Assembly: GCA_009691245.1 (NCBI GenBank)
Contig: SHUM01000036.1
Location: forward strand, 1 to 36,048
DNA from: Acidobacteriota bacterium
GTDB lineage: Bacteria > Acidobacteriota > Terriglobia > 2-12-FULL-54-10
Direction: 5' to 3'
Length of the DNA: 36,048 bases
Positions 23,204 through 28,299 of the stretch are shown in pieces. The notes beneath the pieces were generated by a model that ran no database searches, was not told the DNA's origin, and worked only from the letters and a program-made list of their open reading frames with translations. Every line of letters starts with the position of its first letter. Position 1 is the first letter of the stretch. The translations under genes were made by a program, and so were the position numbers.

Positions 23204-24001
23204 ATGGATTCACTTCCTGCCGAATCCATTCACTTGATCGTCACCTCTCCCCCTTACTGGACGCTGAAGAATTACCGGGATTCAGATGGCCAACTGGGAC
23301 ATGTTGCCGACTATGATGCATTTCTCGCCGAACTGGATAGGGTTTGGCAACATTGTTGCCGGGTTCTTGTGCCGGGCGGTCGCCTGATCTGCATTGTGGG
23401 CGATGTTTGTTTATCGCGCCGGGAGAATGACGGTCGGCACACTGTAGTCCCGCTCCATGCATCGATACAGGAGCGTTGCCGCAAGATTGGATTTGATAAT
23501 CTTGCTCCAATCATCTGGCACAAGATTTCCAACGCTGCTTATGAAGTGAAGAATGGTTCATCATTCCTAGGAAAACCCTACGAGCCGAATGCCGTAATCA
23601 AGAATGATATTGAATTCATCTTGATGGAACGCAAACCCGGCGGCTACCGGGCGCCAGATATTCCTACGCGCATCTTGAGTCTCATTTCAGCGGAAAACTA
23701 TCAGAAATGGTTTCAGCAAATCTGGACGGGATTGCCCGGCGCCTCCACGAAGGATCATCCTGCGCCATATCCTTTGGAGCTTGCCGAGAGGCTGATCCGC
23801 ATGTTCAGCTTTGTTGGCGATACGGTTCTCGACCCCTTCATGGGCACGGGAACCACCGCCGTGGCAGCGGCGAAGTGGGGCAGAAATTCCGTTGGATTCG
23901 AGATTGATCCGTATTACTTCAAGCTGGCTCAGAATCGAATCGCCCGAGAAACCTCCTCGCTATTCGGCACGGCAACTGTTCACACCACCGCTACCACCTG
24001 A
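23204..24001 (+). CDS. Beta-class DNA methyltransferase of a type II R-M system (N-terminus detached)
   Basis: A 265-residue frame with the catalytic motif IV TSPPYW at residues 14-19 close to the start and the SAM-binding motif I DPFMGTGTT near residue 212. This order is typical of beta-class enzymes modifying exocyclic amino groups; SPPY favours N4-cytosine, though N6-adenine cannot be excluded. Long stretches such as GGRLICIVGDVCLSRRENDG and GFDNLAPIIWHKISNAAYEV are family-like. As sequenced the gene is split from its first ~70 codons by TAA 23156. Both core motifs lie after ATG 23204, so a restart product might still work. The restriction gene starts four bases after its stop. Confidence 0.85.
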   Translation: MDSLPAESIHLIVTSPPYWTLKNYRDSDGQLGHVADYDAFLAELDRVWQHCCRVLVPGGRLICIVGDVCLSRRENDGRHTVVPLHASIQERCRKIGFDNLAPIIWHKISNAAYEVKNGSSFLGKPYEPNAVIKNDIEFILMERKPGGYRAPDIPTRILSLISAENYQKWFQQIWTGLPGASTKDHPAPYPLELAERLIRMFSFVGDTVLDPFMGTGTTAVAAAKWGRNSVGFEIDPYYFKLAQNRIARETSSLFGTATVHTTATT

Positions 24002-24005
24002 CAAT

Positions 24006-24734
24006 ATGACTCTCTCTTCTGACTTCAAATCGCATTTGCGCAAGGCAGTACGGCATTTCTGGAAAACACGCGCGGCGCAGTCCAGGCGGCAAGGCACCAA
24101 AAGCGGCACGCGCGATGCGGGAGCACGCGCGGCAGTGACTGGCGGGCGTCAGATGGATGGGTTCGTAAATATGATCAGGGGAATCCTGATCGATGCGGGG
24201 TTGAGAGAGCAGGATGTTCATTGCAGCACGGATATGGAACTTCCAGGTTGGTACCGCTCCGAGAAAAGATGGGACTTGTTGGTAGTGGTGGATGGCCAGT
24301 TACTCGCCGCCGCGGAATTCAAATCCCAAGTGGGTTTGTTCGGAAACAATTTCAATAACCGCAGCGAGGAAGCCATCGGAAATGCGGCGGATATCTGGGC
24401 TGCGTATCGCGAAGGAGCCTTCAAGCCTTCGTCGCGCCCTTGGCCGGGCTATCTAATGCTGATCGAGGAAGCGTCGGGCTCAACTCGCCCGGTCAAGGTG
24501 GTGGAGCCCCATTTCAAAGTGTTCCCGGAATTTGTCGAATCTTCATATGTCCAGCGTTACGAGATTCTGCTTACCAAACTCATGCGCGAAAGATTATACG
24601 ATTCCACCTGTCTGCTGCTTTCCACTTCCACGGATGGTCCCAATGGTCACTACCGGGAATCAAATCCTGAACTGGTATTTGCGAAATTCGCAGCTTCCCT
24701 CCTGGCACGAGCCCGATCCGTGGTGAAGGACTAG
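24006..24734 (+). CDS. PaeR7I/XhoI-type type II restriction endonuclease
   Basis: A 242-residue protein, close to the length of PaeR7I (about 246). I recognise the PaeR7I family from TGGRQMDGFVNMIRGIL, KRWDLLVVVDGQLLAAAEFK SQVG and FGNNFNNRSEEAIGNAADIW. A PD-(D/E)xK nuclease core is visible as Asp90 with Glu104-Phe-Lys106. Known members cut CTCGAG; that specificity is inferred from the family. The start is ATG 24006, just after the methyltransferase TGA, so both are co-transcribed. An intact endonuclease beside an apparently split methyltransferase would be lethal unless protection persists. Confidence 0.88.
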   Translation: MTLSSDFKSHLRKAVRHFWKTRAAQSRRQGTKSGTRDAGARAAVTGGRQMDGFVNMIRGILIDAGLREQDVHCSTDMELPGWYRSEKRWDLLVVVDGQLLAAAEFKSQVGLFGNNFNNRSEEAIGNAADIWAAYREGAFKPSSRPWPGYLMLIEEASGSTRPVKVVEPHFKVFPEFVESSYVQRYEILLTKLMRERLYDSTCLLLSTSTDGPNGHYRESNPELVFAKFAASLLARARSVVKD

Positions 24735-24802: not shown

Positions 24803-26710
24803 CTACTCGGCACTCCGCTCCGTGAAGGTGTATTTCACCTGCGGGCCGACGTTGGCCATGCCGAGTTCCTTGCCAAACTCTTCGCGCAGGATCACGATCT
24901 TGCCGCCCAGCACGGTCATCACCGGATAGACTGAGCCGAGTTGCGCGACCGGGACGGTGAGGTAGTCTTTGTTGAAGACCACCAGGTCGGCGAACTTGCC
25001 CACCTCCAGCGTGCCCAGTTCCTTCTCGCGCAGCACGAAGAACGCGGCCCACACGGTGGACATCTTCAGCAGCGTTTCGCGGTCAATGGCCTGCTCGGGC
25101 GCGACGATGATGCCGTTCTTGTTGCGCCGCGTAACCAGCGCGGACGCGCCCAGGTAGGGCGGCTCAGCCTGCGCCCCGCGGTAGTCGAGTCCCTCCACTT
25201 CCAGCGTGGTCATCACCCCGGCGTCGAGCGCCTTGCGGATGGGCGAGATGTTGCTGGCCTTGTCCTCGCCGTAGAGTTTCAGGTACGGGAAGCTGCGCGT
25301 CAGCGTGCCCGCGCCGCAACTGATCATGATGCCCAGCTTGGCCATGCGCGGCAGTTGCGCGGTGCGCGGATAGAAGCCGCAATGGTCGGCGCTCAACCGC
25401 ATCGCGCGCACTTCGTTGAGCGAGATGTCCGGGTTGTCCTTCATCACCTGCTCCATGATGTCCATCACATAGTCGAGCGGCTTGTCGCCGTAAAGGTGAT
25501 TCACCACGTAGCGATAGCGCGCGCGCAGCGCCGAATAGATGGCCTTCCAGTAGGAATTGTCCGGCTTGAGGATGCAGTCCTCCTTGGCCTTGTCTTCCGG
25601 CGGCGCTTCATAGGTGGTGCAGATGGCCGGCGGACCATTGTCGATGCCGCCCAGCGTCAGGCCGACATTCCAGAAATATTTGCTGCCCAGGCCCGCCCAG
25701 TCGCCCATGCGCAGGAAGCAGCCGGGGATGTCCGTCTCCACCTGCTGGCAGAAGCGGTGCGAGAACGCCAGGCGCATGGGCATCTTGCCCTCGCGCACCA
25801 GACGCATGTAGGCCGGCATCTTGCGCAGGCCCACGATGTGCGAGCTGAATGTGGTGAAGCCGCCCGCCGGCGGATAGGTCAGGTGCTCAGCAATGACGCT
25901 GGCCAGCTCGTCCATGTGCGTGTCGAAATAGCGGTCGGAGATGAGCGAGCGTCCGATAGTGGTCGATATGGTGATGGCCGACTGCTCATTGTCGTCGGTG
26001 GGCTCAACTTCATAGAGGCGCAAAAAATCGTTGCGCGCCGCGGTGTTCCACAGGAACGCCGGATGCGCGCCGATGAACACCGGAAGCTTGGGGGCAAGGT
26101 CGTCCAATTGCTTGCGATCCATGCCGTTCTTGATGAGGTAGTCCGCGCCGATGCCGATGCCGGAGCCGTCCACCGGCAGATCGATCCAGGCCCACTGGCC
26201 GGGCGTGGGCCGCGCCATCTGCTCTTTCACCACCAGCTCGATGCCCTTGGTGATCTCCTGAAAGGTTTTTCCCGTAACGGAGAACTGCTTGCGCACGCTT
26301 TCGATCTTGGAGGGGTTGGCTTTCGCCCAATAATCCACCGCTGCATCGTGCAGATGCTGGTGCGTGTCAATCAGGCCGGGCACCACGGTGCGGCCCTTCA
26401 AGTCAATCTTGCGCGTCTGCGGCCCGGCCAGGCGCAGGATTTCGTCATTGCTGCCCAGCCGCTGGATGGTGTCGCCGCGCACGGCAATCGCCTGCACCGT
26501 GCGACCCAGCGAATTGGAAAGCGAATAATCATCCACGGTGACAACCTTGCCGTTGTGCAGTATCATGTCGGGATAGTTCACCAACTCCTCGGGTGCCTGC
26601 ACCGTGCGCTGCGCGTGGGCAGGGAAGATCACCGCAATCAGCAACACCATCACCCAGCACGGCAGCAACGCCATCCGCAAAATCGCCACCTGCAAAAGAG
26701 AACGAAGCAT
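24803..26710 (-). CDS. Secreted YtcJ-type amidohydrolase
   Basis: The 635-residue protein starts at ATG 26710, five to six bases after AAGGAG; the frame extends to 26788 without support. A signal peptide (about residues 5-32, ending PAHAQ) predicts export. The composite amidohydrolase domain starts MILHNGKVVTVDDYSLSNS. It has GRTVVPGLIDTHQHLHD (HxH ligands), a long alpha/beta barrel with MRLSADHCGFYPRT, and the C-terminal LGTLEVGKFADLVVFNKDY typical of amidohydrolase_3. Substrate unknown. It is paralogous to the partial gene at 1-950, which shares the HNxKVxTVD and GRTVxPGLI blocks. It converges with the restriction gene. Confidence 0.9.
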   Translation of the reverse strand: MLRSLLQVAILRMALLPCWVMVLLIAVIFPAHAQRTVQAPEELVNYPDMILHNGKVVTVDDYSLSNSLGRTVQAIAVRGDTIQRLGSNDEILRLAGPQTRKIDLKGRTVVPGLIDTHQHLHDAAVDYWAKANPSKIESVRKQFSVTGKTFQEITKGIELVVKEQMARPTPGQWAWIDLPVDGSGIGIGADYLIKNGMDRKQLDDLAPKLPVFIGAHPAFLWNTAARNDFLRLYEVEPTDDNEQSAITISTTIGRSLISDRYFDTHMDELASVIAEHLTYPPAGGFTTFSSHIVGLRKMPAYMRLVREGKMPMRLAFSHRFCQQVETDIPGCFLRMGDWAGLGSKYFWNVGLTLGGIDNGPPAICTTYEAPPEDKAKEDCILKPDNSYWKAIYSALRARYRYVVNHLYGDKPLDYVMDIMEQVMKDNPDISLNEVRAMRLSADHCGFYPRTAQLPRMAKLGIMISCGAGTLTRSFPYLKLYGEDKASNISPIRKALDAGVMTTLEVEGLDYRGAQAEPPYLGASALVTRRNKNGIIVAPEQAIDRETLLKMSTVWAAFFVLREKELGTLEVGKFADLVVFNKDYLTVPVAQLGSVYPVMTVLGGKIVILREEFGKELGMANVGPQVKYTFTERSAE

Positions 26711-26824
26711 AAAGACTCCTTTCACACTGTCAACCGATTCGGGCCGGACACAGTTAGGCGCGTACGCCTGCAACCGTTCTGCGCACATTGTAGATCAATT
26801 GAGTTTGAGGTCAAGAGGAAAAGT

Positions 26825-27790
26825 TCAGAGTGCAGGCTGGGCAGCAATTCCGCGGATGCTGGCGGCGACTTCTTCGAGCACGGCGTGGTGGACGTTGATG
26901 CCGCCGAGGATGCTTACCTTCTGCGCGCCGGTGAACCATTCGGGGCGGAGTTGGGATTTGTTTTCGATGCGATGCAGCGTGGCGCACTTGCCAACGCCGG
27001 CGCGGCGCGCGGTTTCTTCGATTTCTTCTTCGAGATATCTAGCAACTTTGCCGATGTCCACAAGCACCACCACGTCGCTCTCCTCCGCGATCTTGCGCGC
27101 GGCGGGGACTCGGGCCAGCGAGTCGATGCAGCTGGTGTCCATCACGCGCACTTCGCGGAAGGTGCTGACCAGCTCGGCGATGGCGTCTTTAGCGAGCGAC
27201 ATGTGCCAGGTCGTCTGCAGGATCACGCCGATGCGCGTCACGCGCTTGAACGGCAGTTTCGCCACATCCTCAGGGCGATGTGCGACGTGGACTTCCTTGT
27301 CGTAGAGTTGCGCCAGACCGCGCAGGCGCGGCAGGCCGTGATACTCGGGCAATCCGCAGAACACTAACTGATATCCCTCATCGAGCAGCTTGCGCGCGGC
27401 GGTCTCTTGGGTGGTGACGTATGGGCAGGTGGTGTCCATGATGACTTCTAGCTGCCCCGCACCCTGCCGCCGCGCCACCTCAGCGCGGGTTTGCGGGGAA
27501 GCCCCGCGCGTGCCCATCACGAACGGGACGTTGTCGGGCACATCCTGAATCTTGTCCACCAGCTTGGTGTCGGGAGCCATCTTCAGATAGCGGCGGCGCA
27601 GCGTGTCTTGCGTGCGGTCTTTCTGCTCCTGCGTGGAGCCCGCGGGCAGGTGAAAGTAAACGTAGAGTGACTGCTCGGTGTGATACTCCTGCGCCTTCTT
27701 GTCAGCCATCTGATTGGTGCGCGCGATGCCGTAGCACAGGCTGTTCTGCACTCCAGGCACTTTGCTCAGATCGACAATCTCCACCTGCAT
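26825..27790 (-). CDS. Divergent IspH/LytB-family iron-sulfur protein
   Basis: The 321-residue protein starts at ATG 27790 after GGAGG; seven extra codons upstream are possible. It resembles IspH, the [4Fe-4S] HMBPP reductase of the MEP pathway. The three cluster cysteines are placed as in IspH: Cys19 (NSLCYGIAR), Cys122 (MDTTCPYVTT) and Cys221 (VMDTSCIDSL). The QTT block (192-194) and a GLPEYHG block are also present. In IspH the last reads GHPEV, so the substrate-binding His is Leu here while the catalytic Glu (149) remains. This suggests a paralogue with a changed substrate rather than the housekeeping enzyme. No other isoprenoid gene is nearby. Confidence 0.75.
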   Translation of the reverse strand: MQVEIVDLSKVPGVQNSLCYGIARTNQMADKKAQEYHTEQSLYVYFHLPAGSTQEQKDRTQDTLRRRYLKMAPDTKLVDKIQDVPDNVPFVMGTRGASPQTRAEVARRQGAGQLEVIMDTTCPYVTTQETAARKLLDEGYQLVFCGLPEYHGLPRLRGLAQLYDKEVHVAHRPEDVAKLPFKRVTRIGVILQTTWHMSLAKDAIAELVSTFREVRVMDTSCIDSLARVPAARKIAEESDVVVLVDIGKVARYLEEEIEETARRAGVGKCATLHRIENKSQLRPEWFTGAQKVSILGGINVHHAVLEEVAASIRGIAAQPAL

Positions 27791-27835
27791 GGAAGCCTCC
27801 GCTCGCCACAATTACTCTATGCCAGTTAATAAGAA

Positions 27836-28299
27836 CTAAGGCCGTCGGCCTCTTCCGTTATCTCTACCGGCACCACCCGCGTTGGGAGGGCCGTCAGGCG
27901 CCGCTTGCGGCATCTGGAATTCCTTCATACGAAGCGATTCATACCCCTTGCGGCGACCGATGATGCGATAGTCGAAGGTCGCGGTCGAGGCACCCCCACC
28001 ATTCTCTCGAACTTCAAAGGTGCCGGGAGTCTTCTGGGAGACATACATGCCTTTAGAATCCACAGCGCCGTCCCGCCCGTCTGCTCGGCGTGGAGAGAGA
28101 ACATAACCCCCTTAGCCCCATTCACCGCCACGCCTGCATCATCCTGCAGGACTCCGGAAAAAGGCACCAGATGCGGCACTATCGCCACATTCACGGGTTC
28201 AACTCCCGCTGTTTCGGCGGCGAAAGCTGTTCGAGGCGGAACGGAAAGCTGGATCAGAATCAATACCAAAGAGGCGAGATAGGCGATGTTTCTGTTCAT
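27836..28299 (-). pseudogene. Small secreted protein gene with frame break or chimeric junction
   Basis: From ATG 28299 (GAGG upstream) the minus frame encodes a signal peptide (ending near TAFAAE) and a domain start VPHLVPFSGVLQDDAGVAV ... FSLHAEQTGGTALW. At about 28060 the coherent protein moves to another frame, DSKGMYVSQKTPGTFEVREN GG ... DYRIIGRRKGYESLRM, with a Pro/Gly/Arg-rich tail to 27836. The two parts remind me of two different acidobacterial protein types: a secreted carboxypeptidase-regulatory-like start and a C-terminal 'MYVSxKT' domain. An internal deletion that fused them out of frame is therefore as likely as a simple indel. Confidence 0.6.

Follow-up and report, generated by a model that had tools for sequence, protein, structure and literature searches.

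To our knowledge, the IspH family has been treated as having one reaction. The HMBPP reductase IspH/LytB (PF02401, TIGR00216), represented by the structures from E. coli (3KE8), A. aeolicus (3DNF), and P. falciparum (4N7B), is the closest described system to the gene that we report here. As described in PMC4243142, the ligand in 3KE8 is bonded by H41, H74, H124, T167, S225, S226, N227, and S269, and the cluster by C12, C96, and C197. The IspH mutants E126Q, E126D, and E126A are described as having almost no activity, and the mutants H124A and H124F as having very low activity (PMC8837944). Glu126 is assigned as the proton donor, and three histidines are assigned as substrate-binding residues (PMC9745026).

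The window, a stretch of 36,048 nucleotides from an Acidobacteriota bacterium (contig SHUM01000036.1), carries a gene whose product, judged by its residues, is a real but unusual member of the IspH superfamily, neither an HMBPP reductase nor a fresh duplicate of one. The gene and its likely ribosome-binding site are as follows:

26825 to 27790, minus strand: P0001, an IspH/LytB-superfamily paralogue of 321 amino acids (open reading frame and translation; PF02401)
27796 to 27800, minus strand: GGAGG, a likely ribosome-binding site as read from the sequence, 5 nt before the P0001 ATG

The reading frame starts with an ATG at 27790 and ends with a stop codon at 26825-26827, and an in-frame TTG lies upstream of the ATG at 27811. 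An earlier, sequence-only reading had placed an IspH homologue at 26825-27790, and both the intact frame and the homology to PF02401 agree with it; the coding strand is the minus strand, and the plus-strand translation of the same interval contains internal stops. PF02401 (LYTB) is the single Pfam family on P0001 (97.6 bits versus a cut-off of 24.5), and P0001 belongs to it by score, by its three cluster cysteines, and by its predicted IspH trefoil fold. All eight NCBIfam ispH models that match P0001 with E <= 0.1 remain under their own cut-offs (8/8): the highest score is that of NF002187 (98.7 bits versus 276), and TIGR00216 reaches 82.8 versus 187.85, so that the equivalog cut-off is missed.

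The source genome (3.4 Mb in 96 contigs, with a listed completeness of 100 and contamination of 3.25) contains a second PF02401 gene, a canonical ispH (L001) at G000:C5:71244-72074 that scores 314 bits, and ispG is also present, on G000:C4. Every expected IspH residue is in place in the alignment of L001, whose identity to other IspH rows rises to 71% and whose nearest row comes from its own family. The check for a canonical ispH elsewhere in the genome thus found one, and P0001 is not the sole ispH. With a separate canonical gene present, P0001 is, on sequence grounds, not the cell's own IspH.

To compare residues, we built an alignment of P0001, its orthologue P0002, and 65 further IspH sequences, of which phylum genomes supplied 59 and plasmid records 6 (E. 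coli, Neisseria, Burkholderia, Halomonas, Collinsella, and Sulfurovum), omitting loci that repeat P0001, P0002, or L001. H41, H74, C96, H124, E126, T168, C197, T200, S225, N227, and S269 are invariant in all 65 other rows; C12 is present in 64 of the 65, the remaining row being gapped there, and the T167 position holds Thr in 56 rows and Ser in 9. The identity of P0001 to these rows is 19.6-25.7%. The features around the cluster are:

27734 to 27736, minus strand: codon of Cys19, putative cluster ligand (E. coli C12), from alignments
27425 to 27427, minus strand: codon of Cys122, putative cluster ligand (E. coli C96), from alignments
27128 to 27130, minus strand: codon of Cys221, putative cluster ligand (E. 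coli C197), from alignments
27566 to 27649, minus strand: extended segment between the first two cysteines, approximately residues 48-75, from the Cys-to-Cys spacing

MAFFT and profile-profile alignments both place C19, C122, and C221 on the three cluster ligands of IspH, as had been proposed, and all three are kept in both P0001 and P0002; from these kept ligands we infer a [4Fe-4S] cluster in P0001. The region between the first two cysteines had also been called unusual, and indeed they lie 103 residues apart in P0001, the spacing being 73-86 in the other rows with a first Cys (64 of 65).

In contrast to the cluster site, the substrate site has changed at the following places:

27506 to 27508, minus strand: Arg95 at the position of the substrate-binding His74, from alignments (His in 65/65 others)
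27317 to 27355, minus strand: GLPEYHGLPRLRG, residues 146-158, replacing GHxxHPEVEG, with L153 or Y150 at H124 and R155 at E126
27035 to 27052, minus strand: GKVARY, residues 247-252, where IspH has its diphosphate-binding S-x-N loop, from alignments with uncertain register
26894 to 26896, minus strand: Asn299 at the position of Ser269, from alignments (Ser in 65/65 others)

Both P0001 and P0002 retain T167 and T168, and both have lost H74, H124, E126, T200, S225, N227, and S269, each of which is present in 65/65 rows elsewhere. In P0001, S224 occupies the T200 position. S225 lies opposite R251 in one MAFFT alignment and opposite A250 in another and in the profile-profile alignment, and N227 lies opposite L253 or Y252 depending on the method; neither the Ser nor the Asn is ever kept. 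H41 is ambiguous, as its partner is Q56 in one MAFFT alignment and H47 in another MAFFT alignment and in the profile-profile alignment. Under any alignment, five of the six residues of the diphosphate-binding set (H41/H74/H124/S225/N227/S269) are replaced, H41 being the ambiguous one. The predicted loss of a substrate-site His is therefore borne out, with no His at the H124 position in any alignment made, and the loss is larger than was claimed, since Arg95 stands at H74 and T200, S225, N227, and S269 have also changed. The suggestion that another His might be aligned to the same site does not hold for H124, but it may hold for H41, through H47.

The same sequence-only reading took the GLPEY motif (residues 146-150) for GHPEV with its Glu retained, and this part is not supported. 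Gly146 pairs with the strand-ending glycine, the first G of IGHAGHPEVEG, and not with the glycine preceding HPEV; profile-profile, phmmer to E. coli IspH, and MAFFT agree that the P0001 loop has three extra residues. PRLRG of P0001 is thereby brought opposite PEVEG, and the helix of the predicted model starts at P154. In each of the gapped alignments (profile-profile, phmmer to E. coli, and MAFFT), R155 is the residue that faces E126, the proton donor, and H124 lies opposite L153 (phmmer to E. coli, five-row MAFFT, and profile-profile) or Y150 (the other MAFFT). The phmmer alignment to Aquifex IspH is ungapped here and puts Y150 and G152 at H124 and E126. None of the phmmer, MAFFT, or profile-profile alignments places E149 on E126, or any His on H124, and we rejected the GLPEY register. 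Because of the three-residue insertion and the position of PRLRG opposite PEVEG, not only the His but also the Glu is gone.

An AlphaFold2 model of P0001 was built from a five-row alignment consisting of P0001, the orthologue (L033), and three IMG/VR IspH loci, one of them partial. Its pLDDT is 75.5 and its pTM 0.69, and a Foldseek search of the PDB at E <= 0.001 returned 12 chains, all of which are IspH (12/12). The best VIA-align match is 3t0f_A (Z 22.9, rmsd 2.8, 279 residues); Z is 20.7-22.9 for eight IspH entries and then drops to 8.1. The rows at Z <= 8.1 (ferrochelatases, glutamate racemases, NadA, and nitrogenase-like proteins) are far below the IspH entries, and we did not accept kinship with them. 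A model from the two orthologues only is of poor confidence (pLDDT 53.0, pTM 0.40), and with it Foldseek returned the same 12 IspH chains at E <= 0.001, with TM 0.31-0.36 and rmsd 14-15; this model supports kinship with IspH and not the geometry. P0001 is thus predicted to have the whole IspH fold, in a good model whose alignment included canonical IspH rows.

The orthologue P0002 is found in the sole congener (G001), with 92% identity over 315 residues (90.6% in the dN/dS comparison); none was found in the five other genomes of the order, which are 83-91% complete, so that its absence from them is not assured. P0001 was searched against 396 genomes of the phylum, 399 of the class, and 38 + 162 genomes of the G117 and G381 classes, samples that overlap. 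Across all these samples, the best non-orthologous match has 76.9 bits and 31% identity, the identities listed are <= 33%, and the 59 phylum rows that were aligned are all ordinary IspH. Plasmid records gave 33 matches of <= 28% identity, and the six examined are ordinary IspH (6/6); phage records gave six matches to P0001 of 23-27% identity. IMG/VR gave no match to P0001 and one match to query A1; canonical queries retrieved a few ordinary IspH there. A scan of the genome contigs with exact peptide patterns, which covers close relatives only, found one locus, that of the congener. As for sensitivity, P0001 matched nothing in 112 of the 396 phylum genomes, most of which can be expected to carry an ispH; such a search would therefore overlook relatives of less than about 25% identity.

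The proposed placement in an IspH family tree was carried out as a quick maximum-likelihood tree of 66 rows, with one cut-off row omitted. A branch of 8.87 changes per column, with support 100, sets the P0001/P0002 pair apart from the other 64 rows, whereas L001 falls among the IspH of its own class. The root is a midpoint for drawing only, and a long-branch warning makes the attachment point of P0001 unsure. With L001 within its own class and P0001 on a very long branch, we rejected the idea that P0001 arose when the ispH of this genome was recently duplicated.

The frame of P0001 is under purifying selection: between P0001 and P0002, dN is 0.062, dS is 0.427, and dN/dS is 0.146, with no stops, and 82 of the 119 nucleotide differences are at third codon positions. 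For the same genome pair, dN/dS is lower for an amidohydrolase (0.079) and pyruvate kinase (0.044); a protein named VWA-like by eye has 0.133, and one hypothetical protein has 0.237. The 25 differences between P0001 and P0002 in residues 1-315 are rarer around the presumed pocket sites: there are 2 in 71 residues within +/-3 (one-sided Fisher p 0.050), 3 in 89 within +/-4 (p 0.043), 4 in 107 within +/-5 (p 0.035), and 4 in 125 within +/-6 (p 0.008), these being weak, uncorrected p-values from a site list of our own choosing and one comparison of two sequences.

Downstream of P0001 lies the following gene:

24803 to 26713, minus strand: Amidohydro_3 amidohydrolase (Pfam), with a signal-peptide-like start as judged by eye

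Its likely ATG, at 26713, is 111 nt past the P0001 stop. Two promoter-like sites lie on its strand, at 26814-26787 and 26733-26706, the latter extending into the start codon (two in 1.8 kb versus 0.4 expected). The pair is adjacent in the congener too, where approximately 650 bp separate the conserved blocks versus 40 here. The amidohydrolase family has been multiplied many-fold in the order, and we rejected a functional link with P0001 as uninformative. Amidohydro_3 matches at E <= 1e-60 number 24 in G000, 17 in G001, and at least 30 in G006; they occur in 7 of 41 genomes, all seven from the same family, and in none of the 34 genomes of other families. Among the neighbours scanned with Pfam, none is a redox partner or an isoprenoid gene.

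Elsewhere in the window, a Type II restriction-modification pair, composed of a DNA methylase (PF01555) and an XhoI-family endonuclease (PF04555, 1.2e-73), occupies 23204-24734 on the plus strand. The conserved blocks on either side of it are 1,882 bp apart here and 108 bp apart in the congener, which suggests that sequence was gained in this genome or lost from the congener. Directly upstream of P0001, the match of 27839-28060 (minus strand) to a 179-amino-acid congener reading frame (L061 9659-10198) is confined to the last 74 residues of that frame, with 85% identity over them, and synteny with the congener breaks at 28060.

How should P0001 be understood? We consider it fairly probable that P0001 is a lineage-specific, deeply divergent [4Fe-4S] protein of the IspH fold, and that it probably reduces a substrate that is not HMBPP and may be anionic. 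A very divergent but working HMBPP reductase, in which H47, H151, R95, and R155 have taken over diphosphate binding, could draw on the placement of H47 on H41 in two alignments, on the Arg, Lys, and His residues that could bind phosphates, and on the IspH fold kept in the predicted model. However, the genome already has a canonical ispH, the proton-donor Glu is absent from all alignments made, and every ispH equivalog cut-off is missed, and we regard this as improbable. We judge it very improbable that P0001 is a decaying or recently non-functional copy whose fold is kept by inertia: its reading frame is intact in both species with a dN/dS of 0.146 and a likely ribosome-binding site, and its long branch shows that the ispH of this genome did not give rise to it recently. 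What speaks for decay is its occurrence in two genomes of one genus only and an amino-acid identity of 0.906, versus 0.948 for the amidohydrolase and 0.970 for pyruvate kinase.

An unlikely alternative is a non-catalytic Fe-S protein that senses redox state, iron, or oxygen, or that serves in electron transfer or as a scaffold, without turnover of a small molecule. Such a role would fit the retention of the cysteines with the loss of the proton donor and substrate cage, as well as the lack of an adjoining metabolic partner gene; on the contrary, P0001 has no added Pfam domain, and its cluster loops beyond the cysteines are near-unchanged between the orthologues (albeit with weak p-values). The objections to our preferred reading, a reductase with another substrate, are that (i) with Arg at the E126 position, no evident proton donor remains, and catalysis may be absent; (ii) the neighbours are uninformative and point to no substrate, electron donor, or pathway partner, a promoter-like site separates P0001 from the amidohydrolase gene, and the congener has about 600 bp more between these two genes; and (iii) the dN/dS of P0001 exceeds those of the amidohydrolase and pyruvate kinase.

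P0001 is unlikely to bind HMBPP, and a different function is the best reading of its residues. The earlier proposal of a reductive Fe-S enzyme with another substrate is supported as regards the different function, by the canonical ispH and the lost pocket residues, and its reductive part is plausible. The mechanism below is proposed because the cluster site is kept and basic residues stand in the pocket. The three cysteines would bind a [4Fe-4S] cluster and leave its fourth iron open to a ligand. The pocket above it appears to have been rebuilt, the diphosphate cage of His, Ser, and Asn and the proton-donor Glu having been lost, with R95, R155, K248/R251, H196, and H301 as candidate replacements by alignment; with cage and Glu gone, P0001 would not reduce HMBPP, a reaction presumably left to the separate canonical IspH. 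The open iron site would then most likely be used for a two-electron reduction or a reductive elimination, with a different small molecule, perhaps an anion, as the substrate. We tentatively propose, at a little under an even chance, a branch of the IspH fold outside isoprenoid synthesis, seen in one genus: a [4Fe-4S] reductase or reductive lyase with an Arg/His pocket and a non-HMBPP substrate.

If this is true, P0001 is a natural IspH member that keeps only the cluster site, and the chemistry of a [4Fe-4S] cluster with an open iron would be adaptable to other substrates. A PF02401 match alone should not be named an HMBPP reductase. Our literature searches on IspH paralogues, families, and new functions turned up no report of an IspH that lacks its active site. 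IspH-RPS1 and IspH-UbiA are, like P0001, variants inside the IspH family, but they are described as fusions around the IspH domain (PMC4746011), whereas P0001 has no extra Pfam domain. LytB1 of Mycobacterium tuberculosis is, like P0001, an additional IspH-family gene and no equivalent of the working copy, but as described it keeps all the conserved residues (PMC4550268), and P0001 does not. Compared with IspH/LytB itself, P0001 differs in the replacement of H74, H124, E126, T200, S225, N227, and S269, in its low identity, in the longer segment before the second Cys, and in the three-residue-longer loop, and it shares with IspH/LytB the near-full-length predicted fold, the three cluster cysteines, T167/T168, and the overall length.
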